Positions 5,363-26,344 of a stretch of 27,000 nt of DNA are shown here, piece by piece (the stretch's first letter is position 1; each line of letters starts with the position of its first letter). The notes below the pieces were generated by a model. That model did not search any database. It saw nothing but the letters and a program-made list of their open reading frames with translations, and was not told the DNA's origin. The DNA is from a virus: the IMG/VR virus record IMGVR_UViG_3300035035_000312, positions 1 to 27,000 of that record. One strand, 5' to 3'. Position numbers and translations under genes: made by a program.

Positions 5363-6382
5363 TTAAATTAAATTTTCAAAAACTTTAGCCGCATCCTGGA
5401 CTTTCCCGGATTTAGCTAATCTCTGTTTCGACTGTTTTAAAGGAGTTGTTTTCTTAACTTGATTGGCAGTACCAGGTCTAGCCACTCTAGCTGCAGATTT
5501 TTGTGTTGGTTTTTTCTTTGTTGCTTTTACAGTTTTATCATGCAACCAAGAATTTCTTAAACCTAATAAAATTCTGTAGTCATAAACTTGATCCATTTCT
5601 TGTGGCGTGAAACCTAGATTATTTATAGCGTACTCTCGAATAGCAATCTTTTCAGAGTTTGCTTTTTCGACATCTTTCCACTCAGGAACTTTTTTAATCA
5701 ACTCTTGGTTGCCAAGCTCAACAAATTCTTTAATTTGTTTCTGTTGTTCAGCAAATTCTTCATCTTTAATCCTTTGCTGTTCAGCTTGTGTAGCTTCCAG
5801 TTGTTTCTTTTTATCGTTCCAAATATCTTTTTCACGAACATAATTTAATGGATCACTTTCATATAAAGCGGCCCAATCAGGCTCTTGCCCTAGTTCAGCT
5901 TTTAAACTAGCTTCAAGTTTAGGCAATAAATCCTTATAAACTTCGTCTTTTTCCAATAACTCTGCTTGTTGGCTTTCAATCTCTTTACGTTGATTAGCCA
6001 ATTCTTGAGTCTTGCGTGTGTAGTCTTGCTGACGACTGTAGCCATTTTGGAGTTCTTCGAGAGTAACTTGAGTTTCTATACCATTTTGTTTGACAGTATA
6101 AAGCTCAGGTTGTTCGTTCTCCTCATGCTCTACTTGATCTTCTATCGACTCGTCTTGATTTTCTTCAAGAACTTCTTCATCTGTTTCTTCGATTTCTTCA
6201 GTAGCTTCTAATTCAACTTCTGTTTCCTCAGTTACTTCTTCAGTTTCTTCTACAGCTTCTTCAACAAGCTCTTGATTTTCTTCAACTGGTGCTTCTTCTT
6301 CAGGAGTCAGTAAGTTAGAAAACGCTTGTTCTGCTTGTTGTAAATTAGTTTGTAATGCAGTCGGTTTTTCCGGTGTTGCCAT
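5363..6382 (-). CDS. Head scaffolding protein
   Basis: A 339-residue protein with extreme charge partition. Residues about 27-95 are almost pure Glu/Asp/Val/Thr. Residues about 110-245 are Gln/Lys/Glu-rich predicted coiled coil (RKTQELANQRKEIESQQAELLEK; AEQQRIKDEEFAEQQKQIKEF). The C-terminus is strongly basic (VKATKKKPTQKSAARVARPG; KTTPLKQSKQRLAK) and ends in a short helix. Acidic head, coiled coil and basic C-terminal capsid-binding tail directly upstream of the capsid gene is the classic scaffold arrangement in P22- and phi29-like phages. Sequence families of scaffolds diverge strongly, so the call rests on composition and position. ATG with a TGAGGT site. Confidence 0.85.
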   Translation of the reverse strand: MATPEKPTALQTNLQQAEQAFSNLLTPEEEAPVEENQELVEEAVEETEEVTEETEVELEATEEIEETDEEVLEENQDESIEDQVEHEENEQPELYTVKQNGIETQVTLEELQNGYSRQQDYTRKTQELANQRKEIESQQAELLEKDEVYKDLLPKLEASLKAELGQEPDWAALYESDPLNYVREKDIWNDKKKQLEATQAEQQRIKDEEFAEQQKQIKEFVELGNQELIKKVPEWKDVEKANSEKIAIREYAINNLGFTPQEMDQVYDYRILLGLRNSWLHDKTVKATKKKPTQKSAARVARPGTANQVKKTTPLKQSKQRLAKSGKVQDAAKVFENLI

Positions 6383-9152: not shown

Positions 9153-9252
9153 CTTTTTTTAATTGATTGTGTTTTTTTAATTTTTGTTGTTCTTTTATTT
9201 TTTTTAATTGTTGTTTAGTTAATTTTCTTTGATGTTGTTGCGGTGCTACCAT
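9124..9252 (-). CDS. 42-residue Lys/Gln-rich microprotein
   Basis: The frame encodes MVAPQQHQRKLTKQQLKKIK followed by EQQKLKKHNQLKKDETQIRK and ST. The upstream AAGG and a 7-base overlap with the stop of the preceding gene (ATGGTAG) suggest coupling. It overlaps the next gene by 29 bases in another frame. Low-complexity A/T-rich coding makes a chance frame possible. Confidence 0.4.
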   Translation of the reverse strand: MVAPQQHQRKLTKQQLKKIKEQQKLKKHNQLKKDETQIRKST

Positions 9253-14109: not shown

Positions 14110-14616
14110 ATGAAATATGTCGAACTTAAAAACATTAAAGTCCATCATGGACTTAGTGAAGAAACTTTTTGTTTTGAAGCATCTGTCTATTTAAAAGGCA
14201 AACGCATTGGAACAATAGGTAACAGAGGATGTGGTGGTTCTAATGAAATAGGTATCAGCAGATCAGATGAAGAACTCATTGAAAATTGGTTGAAAGAAAA
14301 TCTTACCTACGATGATTATGATGGAAACCAAACTCCAATGCACTTTGAAATGTGGTCGTTCTTAGAGGTTGAAAAACATTTACAAGAAAAAGAGTTGAAA
14401 CGCTTGTTGAACAAACAAGTTCTTGTAATGGATGATACTTGCAAACATGGAGAAAGTTTCAATTGGACTTTCAAGCAATATAAAAGACCTAAACAAGAAG
14501 TGATTGATGGTGTTACTAATATGCTAAAAAGCAGCAAGCAATATCAAAATCCTAGAGTCTTAAACAACATGACATTTGAAAAGGCTTATGAGTCTTTTTA
14601 TGGTTCACAATCTTAG
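14110..14616 (+). CDS. Conserved phage hypothetical protein
   Basis: A 168-residue protein: MKYVELKNIKVHHGLSEETF, then CFEASVYLKGKRIGTIGNRGCGG (about 21-43) and an acidic/helical remainder with WSFLEVEKHLQEKELKRLL. The beginning 'K.V......LSEET..F.A.LY..GK.IG...N.G.GG' recalls a phage protein of unknown function that I have seen in several genomes. A strong AAAGGAG site precedes the ATG. First gene of the plus-strand island; function unknown. Confidence 0.7.
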   Translation: MKYVELKNIKVHHGLSEETFCFEASVYLKGKRIGTIGNRGCGGSNEIGISRSDEELIENWLKENLTYDDYDGNQTPMHFEMWSFLEVEKHLQEKELKRLLNKQVLVMDDTCKHGESFNWTFKQYKRPKQEVIDGVTNMLKSSKQYQNPRVLNNMTFEKAYESFYGSQS

Positions 14617-14627
14617 GGAGAAATAAC

Positions 14628-14972
14628 ATGAAGATAATTGATAATCCAATAGACCAATATGGCAACCCTATACCAAAGGAAAAACAATGTTGTCGATGGT
14701 GTAATGAACCAATAAAAAGATACATTGAAAGAATTCCTATTGACCAACCAACTAATCATATTGTTGTGAGTAAAGATAGAAACAAAAAGACTTATGATGA
14801 ATGGGGAGATTTGGTTAGCGATCAAAAAGCTATTAGCAAAAGAGTTTGGGATGGACAGACATATAAAACTTTAAGTTATGGTAATTTTTGTATGGCCAAA
14901 TGTGCTATCGAGTATGCTAATTACATAGCAGAGAGAGTGAACAAAAAACCAGGAACAAAGGTATTTTTATGA
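14628..14972 (+). CDS. Putative zinc-binding protein
   Basis: A 114-residue protein with CCRWC (Cys21, Cys22, Cys25) near the N-terminus and CMAKC (Cys88, Cys92) near the C-terminus, likely forming one zinc ribbon around the intervening beta segment. The opening DNPIDQYGNPIPKEKQ is a short polar arm. No enzyme motif. GGGAG Shine-Dalgarno; the stop overlaps the following ATG (ATGA). A small nucleic-acid- or protein-binding early protein is likely, function unproven. Confidence 0.65.
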   Translation: MKIIDNPIDQYGNPIPKEKQCCRWCNEPIKRYIERIPIDQPTNHIVVSKDRNKKTYDEWGDLVSDQKAISKRVWDGQTYKTLSYGNFCMAKCAIEYANYIAERVNKKPGTKVFL

Positions 14973-15462: not shown

Positions 15463-15612
15463 ATGCAGAGATCTAAAACACTAATCACTCCCAAACACAT
15501 AAGCCACAAGAAAAAAACTTCTCAAGCTCGTAAAAAGAGAATTTCAACTAACACTATGAATAAAAACCACAGAAGGCAGCGTGGTTTAAATTTGAAAATT
15601 TCAGGTAGGTAA
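15463..15612 (+). CDS. Possible 49-residue very basic protein
   Basis: A frame from ATG 15463 encodes MQRSKTLITPKHISHKKKTS, then QARKKRISTNTMNKNHRRQR and GLNLKISGR, rich in Lys, Arg and His. There is no Shine-Dalgarno and its 3' end overlaps the convergent winged-helix gene by 12 bases. It may be a real microprotein or chance; listed because it fills the gap after the inverted repeat. Confidence 0.25.
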   Translation: MQRSKTLITPKHISHKKKTSQARKKRISTNTMNKNHRRQRGLNLKISGR

Positions 15613-16023
15613 ATTTTCTCGCAGCATTTTATTTAGTCCAACTAATAAAATATGTCTGCGAACGCCCCTTTTACTTTTCCGCATGAGCGTTTTATTTTCT
15701 TCATCTGCTAACCAAATAATATTTCTTTCCTCACTTGCTAATTCAATTAAAGCATTACTAACTGTCTTATGACTCATACCGCACATGAGCGCATAATATC
15801 TATTACTATCATGCGAACTCCAGGTTTCTAACCTATGCCTTTCACATAAGGCCCATAAAGTTAATTTACTTGCAGGTGTAAGTTCTTTATTCCCCACGTT
15901 CGCTCTAAACCATTTCCACACGATCTTTTTAGCTTCTCCGAACGAACGATATTTTCTCGCTACGCTCGTTTGCACGAACGCACTAGCGATTTCATTCTCT
16001 ATTTCTTCTACTACCCACCACAT
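15601..16023 (-). CDS. Winged-helix DNA-binding protein, possible replication initiator
   Basis: A 140-residue protein. An N-terminal helical region is followed by ELTPASKLTLWALCERHR (about 47-64), a helix-turn-helix with ALMCGMSHKTVSNALIELA (about 78-96), and a wing around SERNIIWLADEENKTLMRKS. This is the arrangement of the DNA-binding domains of phage O-like and plasmid initiators as well as some repressors. There is no helicase-loading domain, but the phage has its own primase-helicase. Its start codon lies eight bases after a 15-bp hairpin, with no Shine-Dalgarno, and four 21-bp-spaced repeats precede it. Initiator or autoregulator cannot be separated from sequence alone. Confidence 0.65.
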   Translation of the reverse strand: MWWVVEEIENEIASAFVQTSVARKYRSFGEAKKIVWKWFRANVGNKELTPASKLTLWALCERHRLETWSSHDSNRYYALMCGMSHKTVSNALIELASEERNIIWLADEENKTLMRKSKRGVRRHILLVGLNKMLRENLPT

Positions 16024-16030
16024 AATAAAT

Positions 16031-16066
16031 TAGAAAGCGTTGTTGCCTAAAGCAACACGCTTTCTA
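16031..16066 (-). promoter_or_regulatory. 15-bp hairpin next to the winged-helix gene start
   Basis: TAGAAAGCG pairs with CGCTTTCTA (16031-16039 / 16058-16066) and TGTTGC with GCAACA (16041-16046 / 16052-16057), with one bulged T and a five-base loop. On the minus strand it ends eight bases before the ATG. As DNA it is a dyad operator; as RNA it would replace the missing ribosome-binding site region. Confidence 0.65.
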
Positions 16067-16172
16067 TATATATATGTATATATATGGATATTGTCCCCTA
16101 GAATCGCCAAATAGTACCCTAGATTCTCCACTTTATACCCTAGAATCGCCATTTAGTACCTTAGAATCGCCA
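16064..16172. promoter_or_regulatory. Candidate replication origin: 21-bp iterons plus TA tract
   Basis: Four direct repeats have cores at 16097-16109, 16118-16130, 16139-16151 and 16160-16172, exactly 21 bases apart. Read on the minus strand the consensus core is TGGCGATTCTAGG; copies one and three are identical, copy two differs at two positions and copy four at one. The spacers are A/T-rich (AATAGTA, CTTTATA, TTTAGTA). Next to copy one is an alternating TATATA tract (16064-16087) that would melt easily. Iterons, an unwinding tract and an adjacent winged-helix gene are the standard parts of iteron origins. The last two copies lie inside the 3' end of a 42-residue gene. Confidence 0.6.
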
Positions 16173-16261
16173 CCTTTCTTCTTCTTTTTCTTAAAGATTC
16201 GGTCGAATTCTTCGTCAAATTTCTTTTTATTTATCGGTCTGGGCCAGTCGCCTTTACTCAT
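16133..16261 (-). CDS. 42-residue conserved-looking phage microprotein
   Basis: MSKGDWPRPINKKKFDEEFD is followed by RIFKKKKKKG and a tail GDSKVLNGDSRV. The first part (SKGD.PRPI...KF...FD.IF) resembles a small phage protein of unknown function often found beside PAPS-reductase-like genes. The tail is encoded by two copies of the 21-bp iterons, each contributing a Gly-Asp-Ser-Lys/Arg-Val block, so the repeats have written themselves into the C-terminus. Strong AGGAG site six bases before the ATG, overlapping the end of the upstream gene. Confidence 0.65.
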   Translation of the reverse strand: MSKGDWPRPINKKKFDEEFDRIFKKKKKKGGDSKVLNGDSRV

Positions 16262-17370: not shown

Positions 17371-18653
17371 AATTCCATGTTTTTCAAAATGTGAGCGATA
17401 ACATCAATAGTCCATCCATTTCCAAGCATCTTAAATCTTTGCGTATTCGACACATAGTTTGTGTAATTATCTGGAACTGTTTGCAATCTTTCACACTCTA
17501 AAGGCGTTAGCTTACGCCATGTAAGTTTTTCATTTTCAATACTTATCACATGGTCTTTGTTAAGACTTGGTGTAACAGTTCCAACTTTACCATCTTCTCT
17601 AGGTTGTAATTTTTTTGCTCTAAAAGGTGTGTGGTCTTTACCTGTTTGTTGTTTTACTAGCCTACGAATTGCTTTAGCTTCATCTGTTCTTACTTCTTTA
17701 TATGATTGCACTACAACTTTAGGTTTGGTTTCTTTTATTGCTTTTTCATTTACCCACATATTCCCATTACTGCTATTTGTTCTCAATGCTGTTGATTTAT
17801 TACCTTTGATTGTTTTTTTATTATAAGGATCATTAAATTCTGCGTTTTTATTTTCAACATATTTTTCTATTGATTTTTTTGATATATATTCTTTTTTACT
17901 TGTTTTAGTTTCAATAAAACTCGCATCAGTTGGCTCTTTATGTATTAAATATTTGTTGGGATGTCCACCACCACTTGTAAGCGCTGCGCTTTTATCTTTC
18001 TCTGTAAAACTAAAAATACCTTTTTCTAATCTATTAACCCCATCAAAATCTTTTGTCATGTAAGGAGATAGAGAATTTTCTATAGGCAAATCTTCTAAAA
18101 TATCTTTTAAAACTATGTTTTTATCCACAGGTTGTTCAACATTCGGTATGTTAGTCCAATATAACCTTTGTCTATTTTGTGCGCTTACTAAAGCTGAGTT
18201 TATTAAAATAGGTTTTATTTGACTGCCAAATAAATCGCCATCTTTATAATCCGGATAACAAGCTGATACTTGCTCAGTAATTACATTTTGGAATTGTTGT
18301 TTCATTTTTACATTTTCTAAAAGAAAATACTTTGGCTTGATTTCTTCTAACAATCTAATGAATTCAAAAAACAAAGCTGAGCGTGGATCGTCAAAAGCTA
18401 ATTGTTTGCCTGAAAAACTAAATCCTTGACATGGACTGCCTGCCAAAATCAAATCTACGTCTTGGTAATCTTCTGCTTTTAAATTACAGACATCGCCAAC
18501 TTGAATTGTTTCTGGAAAGTTTGCTTGTGTAACTTGAATTGCATATTTATCTATTTCGCTTGCATAGTAAGTATCAACTTCAATACCAAGTCTTTGCAAG
18601 GCTAGCTGACCACAACTCATTCCATCAAATAAACTTAAAACTTTTAATCCCAA
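17367..18653 (-). CDS. C5-cytosine DNA methyltransferase (Dcm-type)
   Basis: A 428-residue enzyme with all core motifs: I LSLFDGMSCG (6-15), IV SPCQGFSFSG (73-82, catalytic Cys75), VI LLENVKM (111-117), VIII AQNRQRLYWTN (158-168), and IX/X at the C-terminus (LTPLECERLQ; MLGNGWTIDV, about 409-418). The target-recognition region (about 200-360) includes three similar beta-hairpins (KSAALTSGGGHPN; KSTALRTNSSN; GTVTPSLNKDH). It transfers methyl groups from SAM to cytosine C5. No restriction enzyme is nearby, so it is an orphan, probably protecting phage DNA or altering packaging or regulation. The start is TTG, required to keep motif I; the upstream AAGGGGGA serves as ribosome-binding site. Confidence 0.92.
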   Translation of the reverse strand: MGLKVLSLFDGMSCGQLALQRLGIEVDTYYASEIDKYAIQVTQANFPETIQVGDVCNLKAEDYQDVDLILAGSPCQGFSFSGKQLAFDDPRSALFFEFIRLLEEIKPKYFLLENVKMKQQFQNVITEQVSACYPDYKDGDLFGSQIKPILINSALVSAQNRQRLYWTNIPNVEQPVDKNIVLKDILEDLPIENSLSPYMTKDFDGVNRLEKGIFSFTEKDKSAALTSGGGHPNKYLIHKEPTDASFIETKTSKKEYISKKSIEKYVENKNAEFNDPYNKKTIKGNKSTALRTNSSNGNMWVNEKAIKETKPKVVVQSYKEVRTDEAKAIRRLVKQQTGKDHTPFRAKKLQPREDGKVGTVTPSLNKDHVISIENEKLTWRKLTPLECERLQTVPDNYTNYVSNTQRFKMLGNGWTIDVIAHILKNMEL

Positions 18654-20488
18654 TTTATTCCCCCTTTTGTATTTTCAATAGGTTCTAAGACGACATCTTT
18701 TCTGAATAGAGTTTTAACTGAATAATCAATCTCACTATTAGACTTGACCATACTTGCTCTTACTACCCTAGTTCTGTCAAATTCTACGCCATTTTCTAAA
18801 CAAAGCCTTTCTGCTTCTTCTTGAGAGCCAAGATAAAGTGCGAGGGCAAATCTATGTCCATCAACAAGACTGCTGGCCCCCCTTATTGACATCCTGGCAT
18901 CAAGATTACTTTCAGTACCAACAAGTCCAGCTTTATTCATGTGATGAATTGAGAGTGTGGTTACTCCTAATCTTGCAGATATGTTGGCACAAAAACTAGC
19001 ATACATTTGTCCAGCTTCATTTGAACTACTGATTGATGCACTCACAAAACTTTGCACAGGATCAATGACAACCAATTTCAAATTGTTAATACTTTCAAGA
19101 GCGGTAATTAATTCATCTGCTTGAGTGGTTGTGTGCAAACCTTGCGAACTGTTATCCCCAAGCACTATCAACCTTTCTTTTAAACTAGGTATTGGTAAAG
19201 CATAGACTTCATTCAAGCCTTCAAACCTTTTTCCTTGTTTGTCCAAAGCATCAACTCTACGATGTAATTCTTGTGCATCATCTTCAGCAGATAGATAAAC
19301 AGCAGATCCAGAATTGACTATTTCATTTCCTAACCAAGAGCCTGAACCATGAGCCACTTTCAAGCATAAGTCTAATGCCAACATAGATTTACCTATACCA
19401 CCTATTGATGCCATAATTCCAGGCTTGCCAAGCTCTATAAAATTTTCAACCAACCATTCTCTTTTAGGAATTTCTCCTTTCAAGAATTTCACATTGAATT
19501 GTTTTAGTGGCAAACCATTATCTAATATTTCATTTCTTACAACATTTAAACCTTCCTTTTGGTGTAAGTCGTTATAATCGCCTAAGACAGAAGGCAATCT
19601 AACTACTGTATTATTAAGTGCTGATGATAATTCTTCTGCCTTCCTTTGCCCCACCTGGTTTTTATCATTATCAAATAAAATATAAAACCTAGCTTTTGTC
19701 ATTTTTCTTAAATTTGTTAGAGCAGTTAATCCAAAGTTTGCTGAAAATACACAAACCACAGGAAGGTTTGTGGCCATAAATACACTCATAGCGGTAGCAA
19801 CTCCTTCAACAACTAAAACTTGTTCTAAATCAGACCATTCAGACCAACTAAACCCAACTATAAAAACACTTCCTTTTACTTCACTAGCACTTACAAATCG
19901 TTTTTCTCCTAAAGGACTAATGTATTGCAGCGACCTTATTTCAGGCTTGACATTGGTAGTAGAATATAAAGGAACAACAAGAGAATTTCCTATTGTTTTC
20001 AATCCATAATTTTTAATTTGTTTCTTTGTGAGGTAATCGTGATTAACGCAATCTATACTTTTTCTAAAACGCTCTTGGCAATCTTTGGCTACTTGATTGT
20101 ACCTTTTTTTTCTTTCTTTTTTACTCCTCTCTATGTCGTGAGCAATATCGGATTTTAGTTTTTCACGATCTTGAAAAGAGAGTTTATTTATATCGGTATT
20201 AGACCATTTATAAGTATTCCCATCTCTCCAATTACCATAAACTATATTTATAAAGTTAGCGTTTTCGTTATAAACATACCAACCGGATTTCTCATTGTTT
20301 TTGTCAGGTCTATGGTTTGTACTTGCCTTGACCATACATCTTATGACTTCTCCTGATGTATCTAAATAGCTTACTGCTAAGCCATCACTATTCATTTGAT
20401 TGATTGCATCTGAAATGTCTTTGCCACTTCCAAAATGTAGTTCTTTATCTAAAACTAAACCATTCTCATAAAATTTAGTCAGATCCAT
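18644..20488 (-). CDS. TOPRIM primase-RepA-type helicase
   Basis: A 614-residue replication protein. The N-terminal 200 residues have no clear zinc finger. The TOPRIM domain has QVLVVEGVATAMSVF (223-237, Glu228) and LFDNDKNQVG (271-280), followed by GDYNDLH (303-309). The helicase/ATPase domain has Walker A SIGGIGKS (361-368), Walker B LKLVVIDPVQ (470-479), and the histidine-rich motif TLSIHHMNKAG (511-521), as in RepA/AAA_25 hexameric helicases. Combined primase and helicase proteins of this type drive phage DNA replication. Genes for SSB- and Sak4-like proteins lie upstream. It overlaps both neighbours. Confidence 0.88.
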   Translation of the reverse strand: MDLTKFYENGLVLDKELHFGSGKDISDAINQMNSDGLAVSYLDTSGEVIRCMVKASTNHRPDKNNEKSGWYVYNENANFINIVYGNWRDGNTYKWSNTDINKLSFQDREKLKSDIAHDIERSKKERKKRYNQVAKDCQERFRKSIDCVNHDYLTKKQIKNYGLKTIGNSLVVPLYSTTNVKPEIRSLQYISPLGEKRFVSASEVKGSVFIVGFSWSEWSDLEQVLVVEGVATAMSVFMATNLPVVCVFSANFGLTALTNLRKMTKARFYILFDNDKNQVGQRKAEELSSALNNTVVRLPSVLGDYNDLHQKEGLNVVRNEILDNGLPLKQFNVKFLKGEIPKREWLVENFIELGKPGIMASIGGIGKSMLALDLCLKVAHGSGSWLGNEIVNSGSAVYLSAEDDAQELHRRVDALDKQGKRFEGLNEVYALPIPSLKERLIVLGDNSSQGLHTTTQADELITALESINNLKLVVIDPVQSFVSASISSSNEAGQMYASFCANISARLGVTTLSIHHMNKAGLVGTESNLDARMSIRGASSLVDGHRFALALYLGSQEEAERLCLENGVEFDRTRVVRASMVKSNSEIDYSVKTLFRKDVVLEPIENTKGGINWD

Positions 20489-25413: not shown

Positions 25414-25500
25414 CTAGTTTAAATAAATTTCTAAATTCCAAATAAAAATAAATATAATTGCAAGCAGCAATAAAATTATTAAGTCTTTAGGCTCTCGCAT
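25414..25500 (-). CDS. 28-residue single-TM microprotein
   Basis: MREPKDLIILLLLAIIFIFI followed by WNLEIYLN: a single hydrophobic helix with a charged N-terminus. GAGAG lies before the ATG and the gene overlaps the multi-HTH gene by 14 bases. Its stop codon (TAG) lies inside the Shine-Dalgarno TAGGAG of the next gene. Function unknown; phages often encode such short membrane proteins. Confidence 0.5.
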   Translation of the reverse strand: MREPKDLIILLLLAIIFIFIWNLEIYLN

Positions 25501-26344
25501 TTTTATATCTCTCTATAGCAATCTTAGGCATATAGTAATGTCTTGTAATAAAATGAAATAAAACTTGTGATGATGATTTAGTTGTTCCTATCTCCTTTTC
25601 TAAATCTCTTAAAGTTTTACCATTTGTCAATCCTTCTCTAATCCAATCTAGTTTTTTGTTTATTTGTTCTTTATCAAGCGATACAGATGCTACTTGGTTT
25701 TGATTTAACTTGGGATTACGATACAAACCAATTTGTTTTAAATCTCTTAGTAATTTTGTAATCTGAGCAACTGAACAAGAAAGAATATTTGCACATTCCT
25801 CAATAGTAAGATTGTTCATTCTTAAATTAAGAACTCTCATGTGTCGCTCTGTAATTTGAAAATCAAATCTGAAATTATCTAATGGATCAATTAACTTTTT
25901 TTTCCAACAATTTAGCAAAGTAAATCTAACAAACTTTCTGTAAATAACTCCTGGATTTTTTTCAAAAAAATTATCTTTCCATTCTATCCATTCAGGAGTT
26001 CCATATAAATTTGTTATGGCATTGACAACTTCTGAAAAGACAGCATTTATTTTTTCCTTTGTATTATGAACAGTTCTTTCTTTTGTTGATCTAACATAAT
26101 AACCTTCTGCTTCTGCCCTATTAAGTAATTGTCTAATTCTCTCTCTTGTAATTCCATATCTATCGCCTAACGACTGATATGTATTTGAATGATCTAAATT
26201 CCAAAGTGTTAGCACTTCCAAATTTCTTTGGTTAGAAACCCATCTTAATTTTTTCTTTGCTCGACTTAAATTATATTCTGCTTTAAGAAGATGTTTTTTT
26301 AACGCCCATACGCTTTTTAAATTTTCTATTCTATTGATGTCCAT
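25487..26344 (-). CDS. Sigma-region-4-like multi-HTH regulator
   Basis: A 285-residue protein. Residues about 44-79 (LTLWNLDHSNTYQSLGDRYG then ITRERIRQLLNRAE) are nearly a textbook sigma-70 region 4, with the 'ITRERIRQ' recognition helix. Two further candidate helix-turn-helices are seen at about 164-203 (ITERHMRVLNLRMNNLTIEE; ANILSCSVAQITKLLRDLK) and 236-266 (GKTLRDLEKEIGTTKSSSQV). No region 2 is recognisable, so it is not a full sigma factor. It may recruit or redirect host RNA polymerase or act as a repressor. ATG with GGAG; first larger gene of the minus-strand early operon. Confidence 0.7.
   Translation of the reverse strand: MDINRIENLKSVWALKKHLLKAEYNLSRAKKKLRWVSNQRNLEVLTLWNLDHSNTYQSLGDRYGITRERIRQLLNRAEAEGYYVRSTKERTVHNTKEKINAVFSEVVNAITNLYGTPEWIEWKDNFFEKNPGVIYRKFVRFTLLNCWKKKLIDPLDNFRFDFQITERHMRVLNLRMNNLTIEECANILSCSVAQITKLLRDLKQIGLYRNPKLNQNQVASVSLDKEQINKKLDWIREGLTNGKTLRDLEKEIGTTKSSSQVLFHFITRHYYMPKIAIERYKNARA

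Follow-up and report, generated by a model that had tools for sequence, protein, structure and literature searches.

A candidate iteron-type replication origin with a conserved bulged hairpin in a family of uncultured phages

Does a short set of regularly spaced repeats in the DNA of an uncultured marine phage mark the place where its replication starts? The question was raised by a first-pass annotation of a stretch of 27,000 nucleotides from the IMG/VR virus record IMGVR_UViG_3300035035_000312 (hereafter the window). It described four exact iterons spaced by 21 bp, beside a TA tract and a winged-helix gene, as a candidate phage origin. This interpretation is supported by our analysis: it is consistent with the data and favoured by them, but it is not proven. 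Judging from the sequence comparisons, we consider it probable that the phage has its replication origin at 16031-16172, with iterons bound by its own compact initiator and a hairpin that would serve as a priming or helicase-loading site. The relevant features are:

16152-16172, minus strand: iteron 1, TGGCGATTCTAAGGTACTAAA, read from the sequence
16131-16151, minus strand: iteron 2, TGGCGATTCTAGGGTATAAAG, read from the sequence
16110-16130, minus strand: iteron 3, TGGAGAATCTAGGGTACTATT, read from the sequence
16089-16109, minus strand: iteron 4, TGGCGATTCTAGGGGACAATA, whose end overlaps the ATATCC motif
16086-16091, minus strand: ATATCC motif, placed after the final iteron in almost every relative
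16067-16085, minus strand: alternating TA tract, candidate unwinding region
16031-16066, minus strand: hairpin in which one base is bulged, candidate site for priming or helicase loading
15601-16023, minus strand: 140-residue winged-helix protein, proposed initiator (predicted fold, weak family matches)
16133-16261, minus strand: 42-residue ORF (MSKGDWPRP...GDSKVLNGDSRV), whose 3' end is iteron sequence
18644-20488, minus strand: Toprim primase joined to an RSF1010 RepA-like helicase (614 residues), proposed partner replication enzyme

Organization of the segment

On the minus strand, the coding strand here, the 42-residue ORF is followed by iterons 1-4 (16172-16089), the ATATCC motif (16091-16086), the TA tract (16085-16067), the hairpin (16066-16031), and the start codon of the 140-residue gene (16023). 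The TA tract does adjoin the repeats, as the first-pass annotation had it, and the array does lie 5' of a gene with a predicted winged helix, with the correction that the repeats are read on the minus strand. The claim of four exact repeats holds for the spacing but not for the letters. The cores start, on the plus strand, at 16097 (CCCTAGAATCGCC), 16118 (CCCTAGATTCTCC), 16139 (CCCTAGAATCGCC), and 16160 (CCTTAGAATCGCC), in steps of exactly 21 bp, and differ from the commonest 13-base core at 0-2 positions. The top array given by TRF in the window is at 16096-16172 (period 21, 3.7 copies, 78% matches, score 98). The match of the array at lag 21 is 0.78 over 54 positions, and the maximum among 30 dinucleotide shuffles of the whole window, at periods 15-30, is 0.66. 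When the window was scanned with a weight matrix, the four iterons scored 21.8-24.8 and the next best site 8.7, i.e., there is no comparable copy elsewhere in the window. The segment thus shows the marks of an iteron origin: regular direct repeats about two helical turns apart, an adjacent AT-rich region (the TA tract, and an AT-rich spacer in relatives), and a neighbouring gene for a DNA-binding protein with a predicted winged-helix fold.

The ATATCC motif and the hairpin were both absent from the earlier description of the segment. The hairpin is the sole one in the window with at least 12 pairs including at least 5 G-C pairs, and five block shuffles of the window produced none of this kind.

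The 42-residue ORF is replaced by different genes in some relatives. The last residues of these differing upstream genes are encoded by iteron sequence (GDSKVLNGDSRV in the window; also in L001, L007, and L008), a pattern suggestive of recombination at the border of the module. On the other side, small genes of the opposite strand lie between the initiator gene and terS (14110-14972, plus strand), and are found at the same place in relatives. The window also encodes a 285-residue protein (25487-26344, minus strand) whose residues 39-77 match sigma-70 region 4, with another, weak HTH match around residues 165-209.

Conservation of the segment in related phages

Scans of viral contigs yielded 21 close relatives when using the protein alone, 64 with an alignment of 14 rows, and 174 with an alignment of 24 rows, of which 80 were kept. 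The array is present by score in 26 of the 28 non-redundant members of the protein family, window included. L195 scores 0.63 and its array is visible by eye further along, and the contig of L057 is cut off at its hairpin, before any array. Twenty-two members have 700 or more upstream bases; 21 of these score 0.69-0.89, and the peak of 440 shuffles is 0.68. Of the control blocks of 1.1 kb taken from other parts of these contigs, 7% reach 0.67; the highest of them (0.80) falls on a simple, T-rich repeat at about 9154-9239 of the window, which is also listed by TRF. Some array-like matches were found away from the gene (L025, L026, L030, L031, L034, and L035), and were rejected as chance matches that lack the conserved context. 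According to the first-pass annotation, close relatives that kept the gene without the repeats would speak against an origin. This was not what we found: the array is kept wherever the gene and enough upstream DNA are present.

Close relatives retain the array, the ATATCC motif, the TA tract, and the hairpin, although their upstream gene differs. Relatives at about 40-50% identity have an identical layout with unrelated iterons, such as CGTACACCCGTATATACGATTAT (period 23), AATGCAAAGATACTTTGCAATA (22), GTGGCGTAGAGTACCCATGAG (21), and GCTTGTAGCAAAGCGCTACAAT (22), and the period is 21-23 bp in every relative. In nearly all members the array is followed by ATATCC, a spacer that is AT-rich and often a palindrome, and a hairpin, in which one base is usually bulged. 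In many relatives the counterpart of the TA tract is a TA-rich palindrome, e.g., TACATATATGTA. When the proteins are 75-85% identical, the mean identity is 0.63 in the array and 0.80 in the neighbouring ATATCC-hairpin block. A scan with nothing but the ATATCC-hairpin motif of clade B retrieved 45 new loci, 43 of which have the initiator gene downstream, and the other two end within 360 bases. The constancy of the layout across a large phage family, while the letters of the repeats change completely, makes the segment a likely replication start site.

The shape of the hairpin is also constant. We folded the hairpins of 20 representatives, and every one gave a stem of 10-16 pairs capped by a small loop. 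A single one-base bulge, on either arm, is present in 17 of them, and L017, L147, and L160 have a slightly larger interruption in its place. The z-values of the folds, whose energies were computed with RNA parameters, range from -4.1 to -8.7 in all but the weak case of L017, which is at -2.1. The outer stems differ between clades (GAGAGA/TCTCTC, AGAAAGCGT/ACGCTTTCT, GGAAC/GTTCC, GTGAGA/TCTCAC). Since the letters of the stems diverge strongly among clades, the shape seems to be maintained through two-sided changes, as judged by comparing stem with stem and not by a formal count of covariation. This comparison rests on the folds of individual sequences, as a MAFFT alignment with a hand-written structure was misregistered. 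In L001, where the hairpin lies just upstream of position 6001, the bulge sits on the arm opposite to that of the window, so that the element comes close to being its own inverse.

The candidate initiator and its iterons

Using 28 diverse rows as input, AlphaFold2 predicted a winged helix for the 140-residue protein with a pLDDT of 94.6 (an earlier input of 14 close sequences gave a poor model, with a pLDDT of 54). The predicted recognition helix covers residues 85-96, and the wing loop about 115-122, between the strands 112-114 and 123-127. At 140 residues, the protein is hardly larger than a lone DNA-binding domain, and no part for helicase loading is evident in it. The family search proposed in the first-pass annotation gave weak matches to families of phage replication initiation: the protein itself matches PHROG 270 (phrog_270) weakly over residues 31-97 (E 1.4e-4) and Pfam HTH_36 at an E of 0.014, below the Pfam cut-off. 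Family members hit seven PHROG families, of which five are named replication initiation and one is O-like; the O-like phrog_678 is matched by 3 of the 28 members. A search of PDB sequences with the protein gave zero matches. At the level of the fold, the viral matches are phage HTH proteins, including the putative replication protein O of phage Min27 (E 2.6e-3), and the PDB matches are generic winged helices, with the initiators 4pql (Z 6.6) and 4pt7 (Z 6.5) tied among them.

If the protein binds the repeats, its DNA-contacting parts are expected to switch with the class of iteron. In pairs of proteins 1-10 differences apart with unlike arrays, 33% of the differences fall in the recognition helix or the wing. 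The value is 8% in such pairs with similar arrays, and 12% is expected by length. Residues 84 and 86 (recognition helix) and 119 (wing) follow the iteron class in 39 of the 41 loci of one subclade, a count that overstates the evidence because both the classes and the residues were picked after seeing the data. Residues 84-85-86 and 119 are HRH-A in 17/18 loci of class beta and NRK-R in 10/11 of class alpha, and residues 84-85-86 are NRH in all 12 loci of class gamma. The exceptions are L074 and L173, whose iteron class is mismatched with their residues 84/86. In pairs of the L155/L169 type, the proteins have only four differences, three of which are residues 84, 86, and 119. The class is predicted by residues 84 and 86 in 95% of the loci, and by the nearest neighbour in the remaining protein in 73%. 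When the tree is taken into account, about 5 independent contrasts are left, of which about 3.7 go the same way and none the opposite way (p 0.125), and mutual information places residues 10 and 18 high as well. These two points, the few contrasts and the other high-ranking residues, leave room for shared ancestry. Hence, binding of the 140-residue protein to its iterons is supported but not proven, and the case made by these comparisons is good but not conclusive.

In 46 of 103 loci (L055-L094 and others) a MarR-like gene of about 120 residues stands between the hairpin and the gene of the 140-residue family, and the iterons, ATATCC, and hairpin remain together despite this insertion. We considered the MarR-like product as the iteron binder and rejected it: array identity tracks it less (rank correlation of 0.42) than it tracks the 140-residue family (0.51), and its gene is missing from the clade of the window.

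A few genes upstream, the 614-residue protein joins a Toprim_3 primase domain to an AAA_25 helicase, and its C-terminal half matches RSF1010 RepA (1g8y, E 1.5e-11). Of 20 contigs bearing the module, 19 have a reading frame of about 570-635 residues that matches the helicase-primase, the exception being a contig of 15 kb. AAA_25 alone is widespread among bacteria, being present in all 14 control genomes, and the informative part is therefore the long form near the module.

The anatomy of the locus suggests an order of events. Several copies of the winged-helix protein would line up along one face of the DNA helix, bound to the four 21-bp iterons, and the strain put on the duplex would open the adjacent TA tract. 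The Toprim and RepA-like helicase-primase may then be loaded where the strands have opened, and the bulged hairpin, now exposed in single-stranded form, would act as the loading or priming signal.

Comparison with known origins

The O protein of phage lambda binds to four iterons that adjoin an AT-rich tract (PMC7466680). The phage module resembles the lambda origin in having four iterons, an AT-rich tract, and an adjacent initiator gene, and the 140-residue protein is weakly O-like in sequence and fold. However, the lambda iterons lie inside the initiator gene, and those of this phage (16089-16172) lie upstream of it (15601-16023), so that the module is not a lambda ori. It also differs by an initiator without a second domain, by a RepA-like helicase with Toprim supplied by the phage itself, and by the conserved bulged hairpin after the array.

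IncQ plasmids divide the work among RepC, which binds iterons, RepA, which unwinds, and RepB, which primes at ssi hairpins (PMC6925257, PMC4434180), and the oriV of IncQ-3 plasmids has 20-bp iterons, an AT-rich region, and palindromes (PMC7557826). The module shares with the oriV of RSF1010 the iterons with a small initiator (proposed here), the AT-rich region, a helicase of the RepA family, and hairpin elements. In contrast, its primase is of the Toprim type and fused to the helicase, not of the archaeo-eukaryotic type of RepB', and the 27-kb window has one hairpin of such strength where RSF1010 has two ssi, one per strand. Because of these two differences, the module is not an IncQ system. 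It is also phage-borne and its array has a period of 21-23 bp. The phage module combines parts of the lambda and IncQ plans. Winged-helix Rep initiators act on the direct repeats of iteron plasmids (PMC4980987), and the module resembles those of known structure (4pql, 4pt7) in having a winged helix beside direct repeats, but their tie with unrelated winged helices means that a specific kinship is not shown.

Alternative explanations

The first-pass annotation had also predicted that GC skew would switch sign at the origin. It does not do so at the array, across which the skew of the window is one-signed. In seven contigs of 32-36 kb, the maximum of the detrended cumulative skew lies 0.65-0.97 kb past the array, where it coincides with the opposite-strand genes that follow the initiator gene and has a polarity opposite to the usual one. 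As the gene strand switches there, the break is explained by gene direction. We therefore set skew aside as a test of the origin: it is uninformative, and neither supports nor refutes it.

The array could instead be an operator through which the protein autoregulates its own operon, with the hairpin as a leader RNA or terminator and replication starting elsewhere. The array is directly 5' of the 140-residue gene, winged helices of MarR-like fold are mostly regulators, and the hairpin of the window lies 7 bases ahead of the start codon and overlaps one terminator-like call, on the plus strand. We nevertheless find this explanation unlikely. The hairpin keeps beside the iterons in the loci where the MarR-like gene intervenes, which would not be expected of a simple leader RNA of the initiator gene; it has no following T run on the gene strand, and an Rfam search with it gave nothing above threshold, just a sub-threshold microRNA match. 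Promoter-like sites are no commoner than chance, the family matches are named replication initiation, and autoregulation would in any case be compatible with origin function.

Two further roles for a protein that binds repeats seem much less probable still. The position of the gene, last in the replication-side operon and before the opposite-strand block and terS/terL, would suit an activator of late genes at the early/late boundary, with the array as its enhancer. Yet the array precedes the gene of the protein itself and is at least 2 kb away from the late genes, and no extra iteron copy is found near terS in the window, which leaves this role very improbable. A partition centromere of the tubC/parC kind, bound by a TubR- or ParR-like protein, is the least probable of all. 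TubR is indeed a winged helix that binds iterons, but ParA-type (PF13614) and tubulin-type (PF00091) proteins are absent from 14 of 14 contigs, some of which are fragments, and the window encodes an integrase and an excisionase-like gene, with which a plasmid-like prophage is not expected. A replication origin remains the reading that we favour.

Distribution and significance

A genome scan for the protein with A2 and a plasmid scan with L186 found nothing, and a genome scan with L145 found its own MAG contig and one doubtful short match. Three members of the family had no detectable relative among the 50,697 phage records of INPHARED. The module of L145/L213 is on a contig binned in the MAG Crocinitomicaceae bacterium MED621, a weak hint on the host. 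Limited text searches of open papers retrieved no description of such an origin family. It is possible, and we propose it tentatively as the less assured part of our interpretation, that these phages represent a widespread, undescribed class of origins. In this class a compact winged-helix initiator and its iterons would co-diversify quickly into many specificities, while a fixed bulged-hairpin platform would recruit the Toprim/RepA-like helicase-primase at a defined site.

If the origin reading is true, a replication start can be recognised in a large group of phages, uncultured and mostly marine, for which none is known. The bulged hairpin, whose shape is constant while its letters vary, is a candidate signal for a primase or helicase. 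The pairs of initiators and iterons would form a natural series from which to learn how specificity changes, and residues 84, 86, and 119 yield testable predictions of this specificity.
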